From: Anaerolineae bacterium | GTDB taxonomy: Bacteria > Chloroflexota > Anaerolineae > Aggregatilineales > UBA3940 | Length of the DNA: 64,000 bases | Assembly (NCBI GenBank): GCA_016926255.1 | Contig: JAFGOY010000058.1 | Coordinates: 1 to 64,000 of the forward strand | Direction: 5' to 3' | Notes under the pieces: generated by a model | Database searches by the model: none | What the model was told of the DNA's origin: nothing | The model's input: the letters and a program-made list of their open reading frames with translations, nothing else | Program-made: the position numbers and the translations under genes | Part shown: in pieces, positions 1 to 9,472 of the stretch | How positions within the stretch are numbered: position 1 is the first letter of the stretch | Layout of the letters: every line of letters starts with the position of its first letter

Positions 1-2
1 AG

Positions 3-125
3 TGGCTGTTGGTGGTGACCTTCATCCGCACCTGGCTGCCGTTCATCCTGCTGGCGATTGGGATCATCCTGGTCAGGCTGCTGCTCAGCCGGCTGGGGCA
101 GGGCTCGACCTTTGGCGGGATGTGA
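3..125 (+). CDS. C-terminal end of a membrane protein (partial)
   Basis: An open frame enters from the left edge and ends in TGA at 123-125, giving the last 40 residues of a protein. It contains a strongly hydrophobic stretch (FILLAIGIILVRLLL) after a WLPF turn and a short polar, Gly-rich tail. This is what the last transmembrane helix and cytoplasmic tail of an integral membrane protein look like. The family cannot be told from this fragment. The long frame overlapping it in another phase is low-complexity (His/Ala/Gly-rich) and looks spurious. Confidence 0.55.
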   Translation, partial: WLLVVTFIRTWLPFILLAIGIILVRLLLSRLGQGSTFGGM

Positions 126-239
126 GCGTGTATATGACGGGCACGACCGGCGGCTGCCGCACAATCTGGGGTAGGTATTGTTTGAATGATATGATTCATC
201 TTAGGATTGAACCTGGTACCAGTGGATATTAGTTGCCTC

Positions 240-1049
240 TCAATGCGGCTTACTGAATATGATATGTGCTCCTAGCCTTCCTGCTTTGTCCCATGTTTCA
301 AAGGGCGTGCGCCAGTCGGGTTCCGGTTTGCCTTCCTCTCGTTCTTCAGTAGTTCTCCCCGGTAGCTTTGTGCCATCGGGTAAAGTTGCACCTTCAAAGT
401 TGGCTGCATGTAAGTTTGCCCCTTCCAGGTTGGTTCCTAGCAGGACTGTTTCTTCGAGGTTGGCTCCGAATAGGCTTGCTCCTTCGAGGTTCACTACTCC
501 CAGGTGTGCTCCTTTGAGATTGGCTACCCCCAGGTTTGCTCCTTTGAGGTTGACTTCCCAAAAGAATGCTTCTTTGAGATTGGCTACCTCCAGGTTTGAA
601 TCTTCAAGGTTGGCATGACTCAGGTCTGCGCCTTCAAGATTGGCCCTCTGCAGATATGCCTTCTGCAATGAATTATCATCGTTAAAGCCCCAACCTCGAT
701 GTCTTAGCTGACGCGCCGCCTCTACCGCTGACTCATTGAACGGACTCCCCATCTGGAGAATCAACCGCTCTTTCTCCCTGTCCTCCGCCTCCTTCTCGCG
801 CCGACCTGTGAGCAGTATCTCAATCAGCAAAAACGTGATAGCTGCTCCGATCATCTCAGTGCCAAAGTTCTGAAAGAACCCGTCGATCCATTCGAACACG
901 GGCCGCGCAAAGTTGATTCCCTCCAGCACCTTCGAAGTGATCGATATAGCGACGCCAAACAGAAACAACCCTGCAGTGATCGCTACAAGTCGCTCATCTT
1001 TGATCTCACTTGAGCGCTTGCGCAATGAGTCGAGTAGTTTGCGAATCAT
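240..1049 (-). CDS. Pentapeptide-repeat protein with two membrane helices
   Basis: The 269-aa protein has two hydrophobic segments near the N terminus (about residues 22-43 and 65-82). A charged Glu/Arg/Lys linker follows, then a run of A(N/D)LxX pentapeptide repeats from about residue 128 to 225 (YLQRANLEGADLSHANLEDSNL and similar units). Such repeats fold into a right-handed quadrilateral beta-helix. The architecture of membrane anchor plus cytoplasmic repeat solenoid is common in bacteria, but its function is generally unknown. The C-terminal 40 residues are polar and not repeat-like. It stands alone, transcribed leftwards, at the edge of the island containing the restriction-modification genes. 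A DNA-gyrase-protecting role like Qnr/MfpA is not supported, because those proteins are soluble. Confidence 0.8.
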   Translation of the reverse strand: MIRKLLDSLRKRSSEIKDERLVAITAGLFLFGVAISITSKVLEGINFARPVFEWIDGFFQNFGTEMIGAAITFLLIEILLTGRREKEAEDREKERLILQMGSPFNESAVEAARQLRHRGWGFNDDNSLQKAYLQRANLEGADLSHANLEDSNLEVANLKEAFFWEVNLKGANLGVANLKGAHLGVVNLEGASLFGANLEETVLLGTNLEGANLHAANFEGATLPDGTKLPGRTTEEREEGKPEPDWRTPFETWDKAGRLGAHIIFSKPH

Positions 1050-1097
1050 GAGAACCTCCCGCCCTGTTTTTTAACCAGTATACAAGGACTCGGAATT

Positions 1098-1122
1098 AAA
1101 AGCCCCCATCTCGTATGGGGGC
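1098..1122 (-). terminator. Rho-independent terminator of the restriction-modification operon
   Basis: GCCCCCAT (1102-1109) pairs with ATGGGGGC (1115-1122) around a 5-nt loop. Read on the minus strand, the stem is followed by TTTTAATTCC, so it terminates leftward transcription from the methyltransferase gene that ends at 1162. Confidence 0.7.
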
Positions 1123-1161
1123 GCTGATAATTTGTGGCTGAGAAAGAGCAATGGGAGGGCT

Positions 1162-2712
1162 TTAGAATAATCTATATTGCAGATTTGGGATTCTTCTCAA
1201 TATGCTAGATTTCATCAAAGGAATATTGGCTAGTTCTTTGGGTTCGACTTTGTGCAAACCTCCACCGTAAACTCTGCCTTCATTTACTATTGTTTCAATA
1301 GGAATGTTTCTTAAGACATCCCATAAATCTCTCAATAATTCATGCTTGATGGCTAAAACTTCTTTTAGTATTGGTTTTGGGTAAAGCAGTAGATATACGT
1401 TCGACGCAATTGCTTTGGAGTGATTGAAGATAAAACGGAACGGGATACTGTTGCCTCGGTTTCTGCCCATATAAGTACATAGGATAGGCGCTGGATCGCG
1501 CTGTTCCTGAGAGTACCATGGGGTTCGATTACTGCATAGATATTTCTGATCTATCCCTTGCTCAATTCCTCCAAGGTAATATTGCCATAGTTGTGGGTGT
1601 TGTTCTTCTAAGAGGCTGGGGGGCAAGTTGCAATCTAATAAGAACAATCTATGAGACAATATTGGAAGCTCAGACTCATCTGACATTATTTCATCAGGGA
1701 CGTGTTTGGGACTGGGGAGGATTGGCTTAGCACATTCGGCAGGAATGTTAAGTGCTAACAATTTCTCTTGAGGTAAGATAAAGAACTTATTTGCTCCGGT
1801 AGCAATCCCACGTTTGATCTCAAAAAGGTCAGATATTGTTACACTAGGGTTTCTCTGTGAAACATAATTTTGATTAGTTAGCTGAGTCCATTTATGGCTT
1901 TGTTCCAATTCGGAGATAGAGATAAATCTTGTTGTTTTTGGTTTCTTTAATGTTCCGCCATATGTAAATTCAACTTTGTGGTTGGGAGGTGTTTTTGTTT
2001 TCTGAAACCACACCACAGCAGATGAAACGAGAGCATCGTCGAATTGTAGTTCATTAGGGTCAAATCTGTGAATTCTAATTAATTTGACTTTATTGACAAG
2101 ATAGTTTTTTACTTCAACCCCATAATTGACATCCATAAACTCGCTTGGGATAAGCCAACCGGCTATTCCGCCTTCGCTCATCCATTCATGACATATAAGC
2201 ATAAAGTAACAATATAAACCTGCTAAACCAGATAGTGGGAGGTTTGTGGATTGAAAAACACGATTTGCTAAAAACTGTTTGGTCTTTTTGCTTAAGTGAT
2301 GATGTCGGACATATGGCGGATTACAAATAATAAGATTAGGCTTTAAGTTTTCAGAAGCTGGAGGAGTAGCTCTGGTGAAATCTGAAAAGTGAATTTGTAA
2401 ATTGTGTTTTGCCCAGATATCAGCTGCGGCGTTTCCATAGTGAGAATCTATTTCATAGCCGACAGAACTAACGATTTGACTCTTTGGAAAAGTTTGTATG
2501 AAGGCAGAAAAGAAAGCTCCAGTTCCCAAAGCGGGATCTAAAAAACGTATTGGTTCTTGACCAAGGAGATTGGCTGAGTACTGAAGAATATCCATTGCTA
2601 TGGGTAATGGTGTAGAAAATTGCCCGAGCTTATTTCTTTCCTCGTGGGTTTTGGTTGAATCTAGTTGGCTTTGTAGCGATTGTCTATGCAGTTCTACTTT
2701 TTGATAATTCAT
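1162..2712 (-). CDS. Type II N6-adenine DNA methyltransferase (Eco57I/TaqI-like)
   Basis: The 516-aa enzyme should transfer a methyl group from S-adenosylmethionine to adenine N6 in the site cut by the endonuclease encoded just upstream. GQFSTP at residues 30-35 resembles the motif X seen in gamma-type methylases. Motif I (FLDPALGTG, about 58-66) is the AdoMet-binding loop, and NPPYVR at 131-136 is the catalytic motif IV. The C-terminal half has the size expected of a TaqI-like target-recognition region. Its ATG overlaps the stop of the preceding endonuclease gene by 4 nt, so the two are translationally coupled in the order R then M. Codon use and base composition are more AT-rich than the flanking chromosome, which suggests horizontal acquisition. 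Modification of the exact XamI/SalI site is inferred from the partner only. Confidence 0.88.
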   Translation of the reverse strand: MNYQKVELHRQSLQSQLDSTKTHEERNKLGQFSTPLPIAMDILQYSANLLGQEPIRFLDPALGTGAFFSAFIQTFPKSQIVSSVGYEIDSHYGNAAADIWAKHNLQIHFSDFTRATPPASENLKPNLIICNPPYVRHHHLSKKTKQFLANRVFQSTNLPLSGLAGLYCYFMLICHEWMSEGGIAGWLIPSEFMDVNYGVEVKNYLVNKVKLIRIHRFDPNELQFDDALVSSAVVWFQKTKTPPNHKVEFTYGGTLKKPKTTRFISISELEQSHKWTQLTNQNYVSQRNPSVTISDLFEIKRGIATGANKFFILPQEKLLALNIPAECAKPILPSPKHVPDEIMSDESELPILSHRLFLLDCNLPPSLLEEQHPQLWQYYLGGIEQGIDQKYLCSNRTPWYSQEQRDPAPILCTYMGRNRGNSIPFRFIFNHSKAIASNVYLLLYPKPILKEVLAIKHELLRDLWDVLRNIPIETIVNEGRVYGGGLHKVEPKELANIPLMKSSILRRIPNLQYRLF

Positions 2713-3674
2713 AAGTCAAAGCCCGCCAGATCATCTATCCTGTGCTCCCAGACCCAATCTATGCCCTCAGAAGCTTCATAACCCAGGTAGCCTGCGTCAA
2801 AGTATCCGCACAGGAATAGGATATATCTTGTTGAGTTGCCATAGGTGTTAGTTAACTGACTAAATTTCTGTGCTTCTTCCTTGCGGCGCTTGTTTACATT
2901 GGCAAGATCGCCAGCTGATTTTGCCTCAATTAGCAAAGGAAAAGAACCAGGTGGTTCATGTTTGGGCATAACCATTACATCTACGGAAATATCGACTTCG
3001 TTATCATTCCCGAGGTTTGCTGGTACGTTGATATGAAAAGCAAAAGAACCAGGTTGAATAGTAAGATGATCAATTCCTGCGCCTGGGGCTACGAAATGAT
3101 AATCTCTATTCTCTAACCATCTTTTGATAGAGGCGAGTTGTCTCTGTTCTTGAGCATTTCGGATTATAGGGTCTGAGCGAGCTCCGGTTAGTCTGTCAGC
3201 TACTACTGAAGCTGCTCGTTTTATATCTGTATCCTCAGGTGGCAAATTTGTTTCAAGCCAGGTGAACAAGTCTGTGTCGGTCAGCTTGAGGATGACCTTC
3301 GCTATTTGAGCTAGTTGTTTGGTTGCAGCTTGCATGCTCATACGAGGTGGTATACGAGGTTTTTCTTCATCTTCCATACTTTTTACGAGGTTGGCTTTTA
3401 CATCTGCTAAACCGATAAGTCGGTCTCTCGCGATGGGTGGTGCTGTTGTCATTCTCAGCATTGATAGAACGGAGGGGTTTTCTAGGAGAACTTTGTAATC
3501 CAGTTCTGTTAGATAGGCAGTGCTCTTTAAAGCGGATATTACATATTCAGTGGTTTTGGTTCTCGTATCTCTAAAAGTTTTTGGGGCAAAGTTCATAAAC
3601 CACTCGTTATAAAAGTCCATTGATTTTTTGCTATCTTCTTTCCACATATGTGGTTTATCTGCATTTACTGCCAT
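2709..3674 (-). CDS. Probable XamI-family type II restriction endonuclease
   Basis: This 321-aa protein sits directly upstream of, and overlaps, a DNA methyltransferase gene. The C-terminal half carries a PD-(D/E)xK-like nuclease core: acidic residues around 228-232 (NEVDISVDVMV), then PLLIEAKSAGD with the E-x-K pair at Glu250/Lys252, followed by a basic KRRKEEAQK stretch. This region resembles, from memory, the XamI endonuclease family, whose prototype cuts GTCGAC. The N-terminal half is mostly predicted helical and probably contributes to DNA recognition or dimerisation. The ATG start is the first in frame. The endonuclease role is supported by motif plus pairing with the methylase; the XamI assignment is less certain. 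Confidence 0.75.
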   Translation of the reverse strand: MAVNADKPHMWKEDSKKSMDFYNEWFMNFAPKTFRDTRTKTTEYVISALKSTAYLTELDYKVLLENPSVLSMLRMTTAPPIARDRLIGLADVKANLVKSMEDEEKPRIPPRMSMQAATKQLAQIAKVILKLTDTDLFTWLETNLPPEDTDIKRAASVVADRLTGARSDPIIRNAQEQRQLASIKRWLENRDYHFVAPGAGIDHLTIQPGSFAFHINVPANLGNDNEVDISVDVMVMPKHEPPGSFPLLIEAKSAGDLANVNKRRKEEAQKFSQLTNTYGNSTRYILFLCGYFDAGYLGYEASEGIDWVWEHRIDDLAGFDL

Positions 3675-3713
3675 TGGAACCTCGATGCGTCATATATTTA
3701 CAGATATTGGAAT

Positions 3714-3801
3714 TTATAACTGGGATTTAGCCGAATAGGAATGACTACCGATTCTACAATTACCAATTTTGTTAGTTATAACTGGATTCTAACGAAATAG
3801 G
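3714..3801. repeat. Pair of 26-bp imperfect direct repeats upstream of the endonuclease gene
   Basis: Copies at 3714-3739 and 3776-3801 both begin TTATAACTGG and end AATAGG, with 20 of 26 positions identical, and start 62 bp apart. They lie in the 144-bp gap between the ribbon-helix-helix gene and the restriction operon, where an operator would be expected. Binding by the RHH protein is inference. Confidence 0.5.
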
Positions 3802-3818
3802 CTACTTTTTGCTTGCGT

Positions 3819-4010
3819 CTATGGAACGTCTGTGCTATCCTGTTTTGGAGATTGGTCAGGAGCGGGGCCAAGTATCCGCTCAGAATTGAAAATAAGAAAG
3901 CGTATGAATTCGGAGGTATTGGTGAATCCGTAAGAACGGGCTTTTGCATGAATAGCCTCAAGTTCATCTTCAGAAGTTCTTACGTATAACCCTTTTGTTT
4001 TATTTGACAT
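3819..4010 (-). CDS. Small ribbon-helix-helix protein
   Basis: The 63-aa protein has the arrangement of a ribbon-helix-helix DNA-binding fold: a beta strand (KGLYVRTS), helix 1 (EDELEAIHAKARSYG), a turn (FTNTS) and helix 2 (EFIRFLIFNSERIL), then a polar Pro/Asp/Gln tail. Similar small proteins act as MobC-like relaxosome components, antitoxins or autorepressors. It lies upstream of the restriction-modification pair in the same orientation, separated by a gap with direct repeats. An inverted repeat lies just before its start. A role as local controller of the R-M genes and/or the divergent integrase operon is plausible but not shown. No toxin gene adjoins it and no relaxase is present in the window. 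Confidence 0.62.
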   Translation of the reverse strand: MSNKTKGLYVRTSEDELEAIHAKARSYGFTNTSEFIRFLIFNSERILGPAPDQSPKQDSTDVP

Positions 4011-4017
4011 GTTTATT

Positions 4018-4033
4018 CAATGTATTGACATTG
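4018..4033. promoter_or_regulatory. Inverted repeat overlapping the integrase-operon -35 box
   Basis: CAATGT-ATTG-ACATTG is a perfect 6+6 inverted repeat (4018-4023 and 4028-4033). It lies between the divergent RHH gene (start 4010) and the rightward promoter, and overlaps that promoter's TTGACA. The position is typical of an autorepressor operator. The binding protein is unknown; the RHH product is the obvious candidate. Confidence 0.5.
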
Positions 4034-4054
4034 TCTAAATGATAATGATATACT
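4025..4054 (+). promoter_or_regulatory. Sigma-70-type promoter of the integrase operon
   Basis: TTGACA (4025-4030), an 18-bp spacer and TATACT (4049-4054) make one of the strongest consensus promoters in the window. Transcription would start near 4061. That gives the 4208 and 4608 genes a leader of about 150 nt that contains three hairpins. Confidence 0.65.
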
Positions 4055-4073
4055 GAGCTTGCTTCTTAAAAAG

Positions 4074-4207
4074 GGAAGGTCTCGCGTTAATGTCCTGGTA
4101 GACTGGGCGAGACCTTCCACAAGCGCCCTTGTGGGCGGTTACTGACATTGTACAGCACTTCTGTTCGATGATCAAGCCGCCCACGGGGTCAACTCCTGGG
4201 CGGTTTT
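4074..4207 (+). promoter_or_regulatory. Structured leader with stacked hairpins before the zinc-ribbon/integrase genes
   Basis: Three hairpins follow the promoter. The first is a perfect 12-bp stem, GGAAGGTCTCGC (4074-4085) with GCGAGACCTTCC (4107-4118). The second is CACAAG/CTTGTG (4118-4123 and 4128-4133). The third is CCGCCCA/TGGGCGG (4177-4183 and 4197-4203), followed directly by TTTTAT and the start codon at 4208. The last resembles an intrinsic terminator, so read-through into the integrase could be regulated. Its alternative role as a translation-blocking hairpin is equally possible. Confidence 0.45.
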
Positions 4208-4621
4208 ATGACTCAAAAGACAATCCTCAAAGGTCGGTTGAACGGCGCACAGCGCACCCGGTTGAAAAGCCTGCTCGATATGATGTATCGACCGGCTGAA
4301 CTGGCCGAAGTCGTCAACTTCAAGGTGCGCCAGGTGTACCGCGTGTATGTCCCTCTCGGGTGTCCTAACAAGCGTGACGAGCACAATCATCTCTGGATCA
4401 ACGGCAAAGCGTTCCGGGAGTGGTATTACGAAACCTATCTTCGAACGCAGCTCAAAGCCGATGAAGCCTACTGCCTGACCTGTCTACGGGGCAGGAAGAT
4501 CATTGATGGGCAGGAAAAGATAAAGAACGGGCTTATCTACATTCAAAGCAACTGCCCTGAATGCGGTCGTGTGCTGACTCGGATAGTCGGATCGGAAAGG
4601 TGCCGGCGTGATCAATCGTAA
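4208..4621 (+). CDS. Putative HTH/zinc-ribbon protein upstream of integrase
   Basis: I do not recognise this 137-aa protein. Residues about 25-70 (MYRPAELAEVVNFKVRQVYR, then an LWINGKAFREW segment) look like a MerR/excisionase-type helix-turn-helix in which the second part selects a recognition helix. The C-terminal part has two CxxC pairs (CLTC and CPEC) about 30 residues apart, fitting a small zinc ribbon. It overlaps the integrase start by 14 nt, so the two are co-translated. A role as recombination directionality factor (excisionase) is the simplest guess from context. No clear Shine-Dalgarno precedes the ATG; the start lies immediately after a hairpin. Confidence 0.6.
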   Translation: MTQKTILKGRLNGAQRTRLKSLLDMMYRPAELAEVVNFKVRQVYRVYVPLGCPNKRDEHNHLWINGKAFREWYYETYLRTQLKADEAYCLTCLRGRKIIDGQEKIKNGLIYIQSNCPECGRVLTRIVGSERCRRDQS

Positions 4622-5678
4622 TAACTACCAGCTCGTCCAGAAGTATCTGGAGTATCGAGAGAAAACTGATCAACTTGCTGATAAGTCACTTCGGCTTGAG
4701 GTCTGCTGGCTGCGGCTGCTGTTGGAGTGGGCGCAGGATGTCCCTTTCGCCAAAGCGTCGCGAATTGAGCCTGCCTACTCTGTCTATGTTCTCCGCACTC
4801 GGCGCGATGGGAAAGACCATCCTTATTCGAAAAACTACTCGGATAGATGTGTTCGAGCGGCAAAGCGTTTTTTTGAGTGGCTCTCACGCCACGTAGCCGG
4901 TCACAGGACGCTTAACGATGCTTACCTGGATACTCTCAAGCCCCCAAAGATAAATGAGCCTCCTAAGTGGCATGAGGCGGTCAACATCGATGAAGTCCGG
5001 GCGATGGCCCAGGCCGATGTGATCAACATGCGTGAGAGGCGGATTCGGGCTGCCGTAGTCTTTCTCTTCCTCTCAGGGATGCGGATCGGTGCGTTTACGA
5101 CGCTGTCTCTGGAAGCGGTCGATATTGATAACCGCACGGTGAAGCAGTGGCCCAGCCTGGGCGTGAAAACCAAAGGTGGCAAGTATGCGACGACTTACCT
5201 GCTGCCAATCGACGATCTCCTCGATGTGGTGAAAGCCTGGGATGTCTTTGTCCGTGATCGGCTTAAGCCTTCCGATCGCTGGTATCCGAACCTGCGGCCT
5301 ATGACCGGCGAGCTGGACACCTCGGATAGAGAACCAGGTGAGCAGCGGGATGTGGGCTTCCGGGCAGACCTTCGAGAGTGGCTCTGTCGGGTCGGCCTTG
5401 AATATCACTCGCCGCACAAATTCCGGCACGGCCACGCGGTCTACTCACTCATCCATGCGAAAGACGTCAGCGATCTCAAGGCGATCAGCCTGAACATGAT
5501 GCATTCAAGTATCGTTGTGACGGATAGCATCTATGCGGTGCTGTCTGAGCAGGATATTCAGGCGCGTATCAACGCACTTAGAGAAGGGAGAGCAGCTATA
5601 GACGAGAATCAGGACATTTTGGCGACTCTAAAAGCTTTGATTGACCAGTTGGAAGGGGGTAAAAATGTACAGTTTTAG
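4608..5678 (+). CDS. Tyrosine recombinase/integrase
   Basis: This 356-aa site-specific recombinase has the full catalytic set. Arg159 lies in LSGMRIGAF. A Lys-rich beta-hairpin follows near residue 189. HKFRHG supplies His270 and Arg273, MMHSS supplies His299, and Tyr309 in DSIYAVL is the nucleophile. Residues 1-110 form the SAM-like core-binding domain. The GTG start is preceded by GGAAAGG at suitable spacing and overlaps the upstream gene. The gene points at the 3' end of tRNA-Val 42 bp downstream, the usual layout for an element integrated into a tRNA gene. It probably mobilised the island to its left, but the other element end was not found. Confidence 0.93.
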   Translation: MINRNNYQLVQKYLEYREKTDQLADKSLRLEVCWLRLLLEWAQDVPFAKASRIEPAYSVYVLRTRRDGKDHPYSKNYSDRCVRAAKRFFEWLSRHVAGHRTLNDAYLDTLKPPKINEPPKWHEAVNIDEVRAMAQADVINMRERRIRAAVVFLFLSGMRIGAFTTLSLEAVDIDNRTVKQWPSLGVKTKGGKYATTYLLPIDDLLDVVKAWDVFVRDRLKPSDRWYPNLRPMTGELDTSDREPGEQRDVGFRADLREWLCRVGLEYHSPHKFRHGHAVYSLIHAKDVSDLKAISLNMMHSSIVVTDSIYAVLSEQDIQARINALREGRAAIDENQDILATLKALIDQLEGGKNVQF

Positions 5679-5720
5679 GGGGCTAATGGCACAAAATCGC
5701 AACAAAAAAGGGTCAAAAGG

Positions 5721-5794
<74 letters not shown>

Positions 5795-5936
5795 GATATG
5801 GCGGGAATTATAGCATCGACAGGTTGAGGTGACAACTGTCACATCGGCCATTTTTAGATTTCCATTGGTGTTGAGACTCGCGTGATCTGCTACTACATTC
5901 AAGATTGTGTTCGTTGATGTTTCAGGAGAGACTCAC

Positions 5937-6548
5937 ATGCAGGACGAGCGTCGAAAGCTCGAAGCCCGGATGAGGCAGGAAAACCGCCTTCCGCCGGGTC
6001 AATCGGCGACATTTAAGTTTCCGGTGCTGCATTATGGCCCGGTGCCGGAGGTCGACCTGGAAACGTGGACATTTCGCACCCTTGGCCTGGTAGACGAAGA
6101 AAAAAACTGGACATGGAAAGAGTTTCTCGAACTGCCGACCACATCAGTAACATGTGATGTCCATTGTGTGACAACTTGGAGCAAATTCGGCACAAACTGG
6201 GAAGGGGTATCGTTTAAGTCGCTGGTCGAACTCGCCGGGGTCAAGCCGGAGGCACAGTATGTACTGGTCCATGCCGAGTATGGCTATACGGCAAATCTCC
6301 CGCTTGACGTGATGCTCGACGATGATGTGCTGCTGGCATACAAATATGAGGGCGAGTACCTGGAACCCGATCACGGGTTCCCGCTGCGCACGCTGGTGCC
6401 CAGTCGCTACTTCTGGAAAAGCGTCAAGTGGGTTCGGGCTGTAGAGTTTCTTGATGCGGATAAGCCGGGGTTCTGGGAAAAGGCAGGTTATCACAATGAG
6501 GCTGACCCTTGGAAGGAGCAGCGCCACGTGCGGAGGACAGGCTGGTAA
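5937..6548 (+). CDS. Molybdopterin-dependent oxidoreductase, sulfite-oxidase fold
   Basis: The 203-aa protein matches the oxidoreductase molybdopterin-binding domain (sulfite oxidase/YedY type). VTCDVHCVTTWSKFGTNWEGV carries the cysteine (probably Cys77) that ligates molybdenum. PDHGFPLRTLVPSRYFWKSVKWV is the conserved pterin-binding region, and the C-terminal GFWEKAGYHNEADPW is typical. ATG 5937 is chosen because AGGAGAG ends 6 nt before it; an upstream ATG at 5907 lacks a ribosome site. There is no signal peptide or heme domain, so it is probably cytoplasmic and needs a separate electron carrier. Substrate unknown. A terminator follows directly. Confidence 0.88.
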   Translation: MQDERRKLEARMRQENRLPPGQSATFKFPVLHYGPVPEVDLETWTFRTLGLVDEEKNWTWKEFLELPTTSVTCDVHCVTTWSKFGTNWEGVSFKSLVELAGVKPEAQYVLVHAEYGYTANLPLDVMLDDDVLLAYKYEGEYLEPDHGFPLRTLVPSRYFWKSVKWVRAVEFLDADKPGFWEKAGYHNEADPWKEQRHVRRTGW

Positions 6549-6570
6549 ATGCGATACGGCTGAGTCGACA

Positions 6571-6597
6571 AGCCACCGGTGGATGGTGGCTTTTTTA
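6571..6597 (+). terminator. Rho-independent terminator between the molybdopterin enzyme and dnaA
   Basis: AGCCACC (6571-6577) pairs with GGTGGCT (6585-6591), and the stem runs into six T. It ends the rightward gene and overlaps the stop codon of convergent dnaA. Confidence 0.85.
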
Positions 6598-8028
6598 CTC
6601 TGATCGGGGGTGATGTTCCGGGGCAGAGTTTGGCAGTAGTGTCCGCAGGATATTGTTGACTTCGCGGCGAACACGTGAGTCGGTCGCTACCAGGTCTGCG
6701 ATGCGTTCACAGCTGTATAACACGGTGCTGTGATTACGTCCGCCAAGCATCTCGCCGATTTGCTGGAGTGGGTGGTCGATTTCCTTATGAGCGATATACA
6801 TCGCAACCTGGCGGGCTATCGAGACTTCGCGGGAGCGTCCTCGCCCGGAGAGGTCTTCCGGGGTCAGCCCATAGTACTCCGCCGTCGCCATGATCACGTC
6901 TTCCAGGGATGCTGATGGTTCTTTCTCTTCTGCCGCCTGCATTTTCTTCAGGGCAGCCTCGACTATGCTGTCGTCTATGACGTTCTCGTTCAGCATGGCG
7001 GCTGCGACGACCTTGTTTAAGGTTCCCCCCAACTCACGGATATTGCCACCAGACTGTTCGGCGATGCGTTCGAGCAGATCGAGCGGCAGCCGGTTTTCGA
7101 AGCCGCGCAGGGAAGTTTTGATCTCCAGGATATCGATCCGGGTCAGGAAATCCGGTGGAAGGAGTTCGACGGTCAGCCCACCTTCGAAACGTGATTTCAG
7201 TCGCCTGTCGAGCTGTTTGATCTGCTCCGGCGGAGAGTTGGCGGCGATCACAATTTGAGCGCCGGAATCATACAGGGTGTTGAAGGTATGGAGGAATTCT
7301 TCCTGGGTCGTTTCTTTCCCCGCAATGAACTGGATATCATCGATCAGTAAAATATCGACGCTGCGGTATTTGCTTCGTAGTTCACTTGTGCTGTGGCTCC
7401 GAATGGCTGCTACCAGATCGTTGGTGAAACGTTCGGCTGAAGCAAAAAGGACATTATAGCCGCGTTCGTGACAGGCGTTGCCGATTGCATGGAGCAGGTG
7501 CGATTTGCCCAGCCCTACCCCGGCGTGAATATACAGGGGGTTGAACTGCGCTGCCGGGGATTCGGCGATGGATAAAGCTGCAGCATGGGCCAGTCGATTA
7601 CATTCGCCGACCGCGTAAGTCTCGAAGGTCTGGCGAGGGCTGACGCCGGTTTCCCCTGGCGAGAGCCGCTCAAAGGTCGGTGCCGGTTCACTTTGTTTTT
7701 CCAGCGGGGCCAGCAATGGCCCTGCTGAAGCAATATCGGGATCGCTGCGCTTTTCCGGGGTGAGAATGAAGCGCACTTCAGCCGTTTGCTGGGCGATGCG
7801 GCTGAGGGTGCGGACGATTACTTTTTTGAGGCGGTGTTCCAACCATTCACGGGCATAGATATTATGCACACCAATGATGAACGTTCCGTCCTCGTGGGCG
7901 ACCAAGCGCGCATTACGGAGCCACGTGTCAAACGTCTCGCGTGGAAGTTGTAGTTGTAGTTCGCCGTAGGCTGTACGCCAGATATCGGCGGGACTGCGAG
8001 ATTGACTGTTCATCCTGTTGTGTACCAT
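6595..8028 (-). CDS. dnaA: Chromosomal replication initiator DnaA
   Basis: The 477-aa ATP-dependent initiator binds DnaA boxes and opens oriC. Domain I (about residues 10-85, DIWRTAYGELQLQLPRETFDTWL) mediates helicase loading and oligomerisation. A linker follows (about 90-135). The AAA+ domain III has Walker A GVGLGKS at 170-176 and Walker B ILLIDD near 227. Domain IV ends in the DnaA signature, IGEMLGGRNHSTVLYSCERI. The length is typical. Either ATG 8028 or ATG 8013 (five codons in) could be the start; neither has a convincing ribosome site. dnaN does not adjoin it and gyrB lies about 29 kb away, so the classic dnaA-dnaN-recF-gyrB order is broken here. Confidence 0.97.
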   Translation of the reverse strand: MVHNRMNSQSRSPADIWRTAYGELQLQLPRETFDTWLRNARLVAHEDGTFIIGVHNIYAREWLEHRLKKVIVRTLSRIAQQTAEVRFILTPEKRSDPDIASAGPLLAPLEKQSEPAPTFERLSPGETGVSPRQTFETYAVGECNRLAHAAALSIAESPAAQFNPLYIHAGVGLGKSHLLHAIGNACHERGYNVLFASAERFTNDLVAAIRSHSTSELRSKYRSVDILLIDDIQFIAGKETTQEEFLHTFNTLYDSGAQIVIAANSPPEQIKQLDRRLKSRFEGGLTVELLPPDFLTRIDILEIKTSLRGFENRLPLDLLERIAEQSGGNIRELGGTLNKVVAAAMLNENVIDDSIVEAALKKMQAAEEKEPSASLEDVIMATAEYYGLTPEDLSGRGRSREVSIARQVAMYIAHKEIDHPLQQIGEMLGGRNHSTVLYSCERIADLVATDSRVRREVNNILRTLLPNSAPEHHPRSE

Positions 8029-8686
8029 CTATCAGGGATGCCAAACAACGCCATAGAACGGCATTGCTGATAAATTCCCTCGGTGTGCAAAAAGAAATGC
8101 CCAGTACGCAGATATTCGTACTGATTTGAGGAGCTATTCACTTGTGATTGCTGAGTGAACGACCACCATATTCATCATATCAGAGACGATATTCTTGAAC
8201 AATGGGATGATCTTAAAAAGTCGTATTCTTTAAGGTTGGTCAAATGTTAAAAAGTTCAGGAGTAGTAATCGGCGATTTATCCACTGGTTGTCACAGTTTT
8301 CTAAACAGTCAAAATCCCCCAGATATGGGGGAAAGAAACAACTGCTCCCCTACATCTGGGGGGAAGACCGGTGGATCGATTCGAATGGAATAGACGATAG
8401 ATGAAAAACGATTCAAGGGATTCCTGTGATCACCTACCTGGGGGGAAACCTGAAATTTCAGAAAATCTGCAGCTTTTTGTCAGACTTGCATGTATGGGAA
8501 ACCCGGTTTATGCTTTTGTAAGGTAAATGTACTGCCGCAGACGCGGAAGTGATTTGTTTCCATGTATACTTAGGTGTAACATCCTACCGTGAGGCTGAGC
8601 CAGGCGGTGTGAGGTCGATGCGACGAAGTAGCTGACCATCCAAAAGACCAGGACCGCACGCCGCTAACCTACAACCGGGGGAACAG
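8029..8686. other. 658-bp non-coding region upstream of dnaA, candidate oriC
   Basis: No convincing gene is present. One DnaA-box-like site, TTATCCACT (8277-8285, one mismatch to TTATCCACA), lies at the right edge of an AT-richer stretch (about 8160-8280). G-tract repeats with a TGGGGG(G)AA core occur at 8326, 8357 and 8439, and CCCCCAGATATGGGGG (8316-8331) can form a hairpin. The position beside dnaA fits a replication origin or a dnaA autoregulatory region. Only one good box was found, so the oriC call is weak. Confidence 0.35.
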
Positions 8687-9472
8687 ATGTCAGAAGACAA
8701 GGCCAAAGAGAAAGAAACGGAAGCAAAAAAGGCTGAAGAAGCCCAGGCCGAAGAAAAGAAGGCCGAAGAGAAAAAAGCCGAGGAAAAGAAGACTGACGAT
8801 AAAAAGTCAGTCGAGGAACGCAAGGCGGCTAAGCTCGAACGGGATACTAGGGAAGCCGACAAGTACTTCTATCCAAATAAATGGGCACGGATCGTGCTCA
8901 CTTCGGCGGAGGAAGTGATGGGGCCTCAAGGTGTCCGTTCGATGCTGAACATGGCGAAAATACCACAGTACATCGACAATTACCCACCAGACAATATGAA
9001 GAAGGAATTCTCGTTTGGTGGGGTCGGGCAGCTCCAACAGGCGATCTGGGATATGTACGGTGCACGTGGAGCACGCGTTTTCGCCGTCCGCGCAGGTGAA
9101 CAATCCTTCCAGGTTGGCCTTTCTCAATTCAAGAGTGTTGCCACCGCAGCGCAGGTAGCCATGCGTGTGGGGTCGTTGGAGGCAAAGGTCAAGCTGGGCC
9201 TGGAGTTTTTCTCCAAACTGTTTAACACAGTCACCGACCAGGTCGTTGAGGTCAGTGAGGATGAAAAACACTGGATATGGAAGATCACCCATTGCCCGGT
9301 CTGTTGGGGCCGTGTATCCGATGAGCCGGTATGCTACCTGGCGATTGGCGTGTTGCAAGCCGGGCTTTCCTGGGTAACCGAGGGCAAGAAGTTCCGTATC
9401 AAAGAGACGGAATGCAAGGCCATGGGGCATGAAGACTGCATCTTCATGATCGAAAAGGTGCCCGTCGAGTAG
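8687..9472 (+). CDS. V4R-domain protein with charged N-terminal tail
   Basis: The 261-aa protein begins with about 55 residues almost entirely of Lys, Glu, Ala, Asp and Ser (KKAEEAQAEEKKAEEK), likely a flexible or helical charged tail. The rest is a sensor-like fold ending in the V4R (4-vinyl-reductase) signature, with Cys residues in HCPVCWGR, EPVCYLAIG, ETECKAMG and HEDCIFMIEK. V4R domains bind small hydrophobic ligands and often zinc, and occur in regulators. The upstream GGGGGAACAG may serve as ribosome site. It is followed in the same direction by a roadblock protein and a receiver protein, suggesting one signalling group. The ligand is unknown. Confidence 0.8.
   Translation: MSEDKAKEKETEAKKAEEAQAEEKKAEEKKAEEKKTDDKKSVEERKAAKLERDTREADKYFYPNKWARIVLTSAEEVMGPQGVRSMLNMAKIPQYIDNYPPDNMKKEFSFGGVGQLQQAIWDMYGARGARVFAVRAGEQSFQVGLSQFKSVATAAQVAMRVGSLEAKVKLGLEFFSKLFNTVTDQVVEVSEDEKHWIWKITHCPVCWGRVSDEPVCYLAIGVLQAGLSWVTEGKKFRIKETECKAMGHEDCIFMIEKVPVE

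Follow-up and report, generated by a model that had tools for sequence, protein, structure and literature searches.

Controller (C) proteins of restriction-modification (R-M) systems are helix-turn-helix (HTH) proteins; in the available passages of PMC3874152, the regulators given for R-M systems are HTH C proteins, and those given for toxin-antitoxin systems are ribbon-helix-helix (RHH) repressors. According to the same passages, the RHH repressors omega and PaaR lead toxin-antitoxin operons. For F55, an RHH repressor from virus SSV1, binding to its own promoter and to other promoters is stated in the accessible part of PMC9608457. We found no case of RHH control of R-M genes in the titles and abstract openings of the literature searched. 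If the small RHH gene described here regulates the R-M genes next to it, its product would be an R-M regulator that departs from the usual HTH fold; if it also controls the neighbouring xis/int operon, it would act as one switch for the defence cargo and the mobility of an integrative element.

We analysed a window of 64,000 nucleotides from Anaerolineae bacterium GCA_016926255.1 (contig JAFGOY010000058.1, positions 1-64,000, forward strand). On the minus strand, the RHH gene (3819-4010, 63 aa) is followed by a 144-bp gap, an endonuclease gene (2709-3674), and a methyltransferase gene (1162-2712) whose start overlaps the endonuclease stop (2712 vs. 2709). On the plus strand, a 147-bp leader (4061-4207) precedes an xis-like gene (4208-4621), with an HTH-like N-terminal part recognised by reading and a four-cysteine C-terminal part, and a tyrosine recombinase (integrase) gene (4608-5678; Phage_integrase, E 2.2e-9), adjoining a minus-strand tRNA-Val(CAC) gene (5719-5794). 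Next to the R-M genes, at the end of the contig, is a pentapeptide-repeat protein gene (240-1049; Pentapeptide, E 4.5e-22). The RHH gene is predicted to regulate its neighbours, which is probable, and we tentatively read it as the autorepressing first gene of an R-M cargo operon that has the promoter-like site for xis/int within its control region.

An integrative element with a tyrosine recombinase fills the tRNA-Val gene, and both of its borders were recognised. An exact 35-nt copy of window positions 5721-5755 lies on a different contig, C23 (266991-267025; L004 1501-1535; L090), in the expected orientation, and marks the element's far end. Beside this copy is a hairpin with a run of Ts, which would be expected to follow the original tRNA gene. 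The visible element comprises C23:267026-271306 and window positions 1-5720; the assembly leaves these contigs unjoined, and because their ends show no overlap, the element's middle may be absent from it. On the far-border side there is an HTH gene (HTH_31), together with a gene that is weakly sigma-like (Sigma70_r2, E 0.11). A second tRNA gene on contig C33 (33267-33383; L003; L091 5268-5384) is followed by a flank that is 84% like the window's flank behind the integrase along some 118 nt; no integrase ORF was recognised next to it, and this flank is perhaps the scar of a related element.

At the protein level, the ORF of the original prediction is present, and its assignment to the RHH fold is probable rather than certain. 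The best Pfam match is NikA-like RHH (E 8e-6), whose 26.4 bits (24.7 in a repeat scan) fall just short of the curated cut-off of 27 bits. The RHH_1 profile matched at E 0.17, and the MobA and MbpA profiles at E about 0.03. A single-sequence AlphaFold2 model predicted two helices (14-26 and 32-46; mean pLDDT 75) and, as a monomer, showed no strand. The top Foldseek matches of this model were mostly RHH proteins (CopG, NikR, MazE9, NikA), with a best E of 1.1 and none at E<=0.001, and a PDB sequence search gave a single match at E 1.5. An HTH fold appeared neither among the profile matches, which belonged to RHH and mobilisation families, nor among the leading fold matches. Altogether, profiles and model point to a protein that is probably RHH.

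Since the top profile matches are mobilisation proteins and a strong inverted repeat adjoins the gene, the protein might instead be a NikA/MobC-type mobilisation accessory protein or its remnant, with the leader hairpins as part of a transfer origin. We consider this highly improbable: the NikA-like cut-off was missed, and the ORFs scanned in both visible pieces of the element, whose middle may be absent from the assembly, included no relaxase gene.

The composition of the RHH gene connects it to the R-M genes. Its GC3 (22/64) is typical under the R-M rate (P=0.56; endonuclease 118/322, methyltransferase 172/517, combined 290/839), whereas under the xis/int rate it would be exceptional (P=7e-6; xis 88/138, int 219/357, combined 307/495). 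Because the RHH gene shares both strand and low GC3 with the R-M genes, they probably arrived together. No terminator-like sites were detected on this strand in a scan of 3500-4400; together with the upstream position, the common strand and the low GC3, this makes a link with the R-M genes plausible. By position, the RHH gene is also the divergent neighbour of xis/int.

Judged by its domains, the R-M pair is of the XamI type, with a RE_XamI domain (PF09572, E 3.9e-95) in a type II endonuclease beside an N6-adenine methyltransferase (Eco57I, E 3.3e-13; N6_Mtase, E 1e-7). Among genome contigs we found 341 XamI-type relatives and kept 80 of them. The endonuclease preceded the methyltransferase in 79 of the 80 loci, and in one locus (L085 49-2694) the two formed a single fused open frame. 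The window RHH protein had no phmmer match at E<=1 against all ORFs of these 80 loci. Within about 700 bp upstream there were 82 small ORFs (six loci had <400 bp upstream), of which 54 were included in a Pfam scan and 28, mostly the shortest, were omitted. Among the matches listed, which cover 25 of 32 matched families, there was at least one RHH_1 (L051) and at least one HTH_26 (L088). The RHH_1 gene belongs to a Cycloclasticus MAG and lies directly before the XamI-type endonuclease with a 28-bp gap (L051 812-1045); by reading, there is an inverted repeat in front of it. BLASTP found no match between this protein and the window RHH protein at E<=10, and it would thus be an independent recruitment. 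The HTH_26 gene, a C-like HTH gene, is also placed directly before the endonuclease, and a second possible RHH is weak (L076; Antitox_RHH, E 0.12). A controller conserved at XamI-type loci was therefore rejected, since the 80 loci do not share a small regulator gene ahead of the endonuclease.

In a phylum sample of 400 genomes, 20, the window's own among them, had XamI-type loci. For the 20 other phylum-level loci, no RHH gene upstream of the endonuclease was noticed on reading the 14 placed by tblastn, while six remained unplaced; this reading was made without a family scan, and one locus (L142) has no upstream DNA. We also considered self-regulation by methylation at GTCGAC, which we take to be the XamI recognition site, and rejected it, as positions 1-6050 contain no GTCGAC; the whole window contains 23 vs. 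34 expected.

The original prediction described a 26-bp imperfect direct repeat between the RHH gene and the endonuclease (3714-3739 and 3776-3801), and this repeat is real: 20 of 26 positions are identical, and none of 500 dinucleotide shuffles of 3675-3818 scored as high. Each core is part of a 42-nt stretch, and the two stretches form a degenerate pair at an offset of 62 (3698-3739 and 3760-3801). Identity is higher in the core (20/26) than in the remaining 62-bp unit (16/36), with a one-sided Fisher P of 0.01 that is merely suggestive because the core was picked for its best match. On the minus strand, each repeat core terminates in CCAGTTATAA (TATAA). Because of this motif, we infer that the pair at 3698-3801 more likely serves the R-M genes as a duplicated promoter/operator region than the RHH protein as a binding site.

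The same repeats had been proposed as the target of a C-protein analogue, in which the RHH protein activates the endonuclease and delays its expression in a new cell. They lie between the RHH gene and the endonuclease start, exceed chance, and their 62-bp spacing corresponds to about six helical turns. Nevertheless, we regard this role as very unlikely. No motif is common to the repeats and the site next to the start of the RHH gene, as already noted in the original prediction. Moreover, the window's repeat motif was missing beside the 80 homologous R-M loci, apart from one match with seven mismatches (L049). The original prediction had named such a loss of the repeats as an outcome that would refute it, although those XamI-type loci also lack this RHH gene. 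A strong direct repeat upstream was present in 6 of the 80 loci (0/60 shuffles reach it), again without the window's motif. Since the methyltransferase follows with an overlapping start, endonuclease and methyltransferase would rise together. In the passages of PMC3874152 available to us, C proteins are HTH activators or repressors, whereas the RHH regulators set beside them are strictly repressors. The controller role is thus a weak reading: a link with the R-M genes is plausible from strand, GC3 and the Cycloclasticus locus, but the RHH type of the protein and the lack of a conserved regulator or conserved repeats at the XamI-type loci speak against it.

On the other side of the RHH gene, the 6+6 inverted repeat CAATGT-ATTG-ACATTG (4018-4033), the candidate RHH operator, is present and overlaps TTGACA as predicted, but it is at chance level, being matched or surpassed in 89 of 1000 shuffles of 4011-4060. 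It is also the only candidate seen in front of the RHH gene for the operator repeats (C-boxes) that precede C genes. The promoter-like site facing the xis/int operon (TTGACA-18-TATACT, 4025-4054, plus strand) matches 11 of 12 consensus positions, in a scan that returned two sites in total against 1.9 expected by chance. The suggestion that R-M expression is tied to excision of the element thus keeps the adjacency of the two units and loses the palindrome as support. Overall, the earlier observations were partly confirmed, and their interpretation is partly supported.

Against our preferred reading speak the Pfam score below the cut-off and the lack of a significant Foldseek match. The chance-level operator also counts against it, as does the search for relatives of the RHH protein, which found none beyond its own copy. 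Only this copy was recovered in a 400-genome phylum sample and in a 154-genome order sample; no relatives were found among viral contigs, and plasmids and phages gave weak partial matches. A chance-level operator and a lack of relatives found would both suit an orphan antitoxin-like or stray gene without regulatory effect on either neighbour. Such a gene seems unlikely here, given the intact ORF, its tight fit between two divergent units, and a codon composition like that of its R-M neighbours.

We compared the xis/int module with 21 sister loci containing the xis-like protein, nine from a first search and 12 from a second; 51 further genomes from the first search were left out, with E-values no better than 1e-6 and matches chiefly in the cysteine-rich end. 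The sister elements (L125-L133, L162-L176) have in common the xis-like protein, with its HTH-like part and four conserved cysteines, and the integrase, and the xis-like gene is followed by the integrase in all 21. Two sisters contain replication genes by Pfam, REP_ORF2-G2P (L129) and Rep_trans (L125), in the manner of filamentous-phage-like or plasmid-like elements. A divergent HTH gene occupies the position of the RHH gene in two of the 21 modules (L130 and L168), making a regulator at this position plausible. On reading the remaining 19, family-scanned in part, no small divergent regulator was noticed, and no RHH gene was noticed in that position among the sisters. Three sister elements (L126, L128 and L131) have RHH-like proteins, and we rejected the idea that these represent the window RHH gene in a new place: the two included in a Pfam scan (L126 and L128) had no RHH match, and hhalign of the three-sequence alignment against the window RHH gave a probability of 0.3%. 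As far as these results tell, it is therefore not the same gene moved.

This comparison bears on a possible but doubtful alternative, that the RHH protein is the element's own lysogeny-type repressor of the divergent xis/int genes and that the R-M genes use the duplicated promoter in the 144-bp gap. It would account for the divergent position, the 50-bp control region common to both units, and the repressor-like HTH genes of the two sisters; besides, the endonuclease has its own 144-bp upstream region with significant repeats and TATAA motifs. However, the GC3 of the RHH gene fits the R-M genes and not xis/int, while the HTH genes in the two sisters are closer in GC3 to their own xis/int, and the lack of noticed small divergent regulators in the other 19 modules argues in the same direction.

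The leader of the xis/int operon contains features absent from the original prediction. A perfect 12+12 inverted repeat (4074-4118) was not reached in any of 200 shuffles, and the predicted fold of the 4061-4240 RNA is more stable than that of shuffled sequences by 4.8 standard deviations (z -4.8; -4.1 in a further calculation). Also overlooked were attenuator-like features (4131-4203, plus strand): a hairpin (4177-4203) followed by TTTT lies just before the xis start at 4208, and its 5' arm (4177-4184) is able to pair with 4131-4138 instead, at predicted energies only 0.2 kcal/mol apart (-68.5 vs. -68.7 kcal/mol). In these folding predictions, the leader resembles a terminator/antiterminator attenuator. 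The best inverted repeat before xis was strong (0/40 shuffles) in the window and in three of the 21 sisters (L125, L127 and L132), with differing sequences. Leader hairpins as a family trait were rejected, since the structure is not conserved across the 21 sisters, and for the same reason the attenuator reading remains just a lead. No further copy of the leader was found in the window's own genome, and in an Rfam search of 1-9000 only the tRNA was above the gathering score. In an extended form of regulation, which we judge distinctly unlikely, the RHH protein at the 50-bp region would keep down both the R-M genes and xis/int, its release would lead to restriction and excision together, and the leader would provide a second gate.

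The reading that we tentatively prefer, the RHH gene as autorepressing first gene of the R-M cargo, builds on the gene order, strand, composition, repeats and integration site observed at this locus. An AT-rich cargo operon would consist of three genes: RHH, XamI-type endonuclease, and methyltransferase. The RHH protein would dimerise and repress its own upstream region (about 4011-4060), and this repression would brake read-through into the R-M genes. Binding near 4011-4060 would repress the xis/int operon too, because its promoter-like site shares the same 50 bp.

When compared to the C-protein type II R-M systems, as described in the passages of PMC3874152, this locus likewise has a gene for a small DNA-binding protein next to the endonuclease gene, on its upstream side. 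Unlike in those systems, the putative regulator is RHH and not HTH, no C-box was recognised on inspection, and the endonuclease and, after it, the methyltransferase form one unit. Closer in gene order are omega (epsilon-zeta) and PaaR (paaA-parE), where, according to the same passages, the RHH gene comes first, the antitoxin and toxin genes follow on the one strand, and repeats are nearby. Here, in contrast, the pair is R-M, with the toxin-like gene ahead of the antitoxin-like gene, RHH binding is predicted, and the repeats lie behind the RHH gene rather than in its own promoter.

Regarding the element, the likeness is to F55 of the Sulfolobus/Saccharolobus virus SSV1, an RHH protein that is likewise very small, comes from an element integrating at a tRNA gene, and is a proposed repressor of element genes in the accessible part of PMC9608457. 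Unlike F55, an archaeal virus protein that binds a known 11-nt repeat in several promoters, the window RHH gene has no repeated operator that we could find.

Finally, the R-M genes themselves follow the common order of XamI-type loci (PF09572), endonuclease then methyltransferase, and differ from most of them in the RHH gene placed in front, which is clear in one of the 80 relatives. As the arrangement is not conserved in related elements, its reach would be local rather than that of a widespread control system, and its sequence features suggest a local variant of kinds already known.
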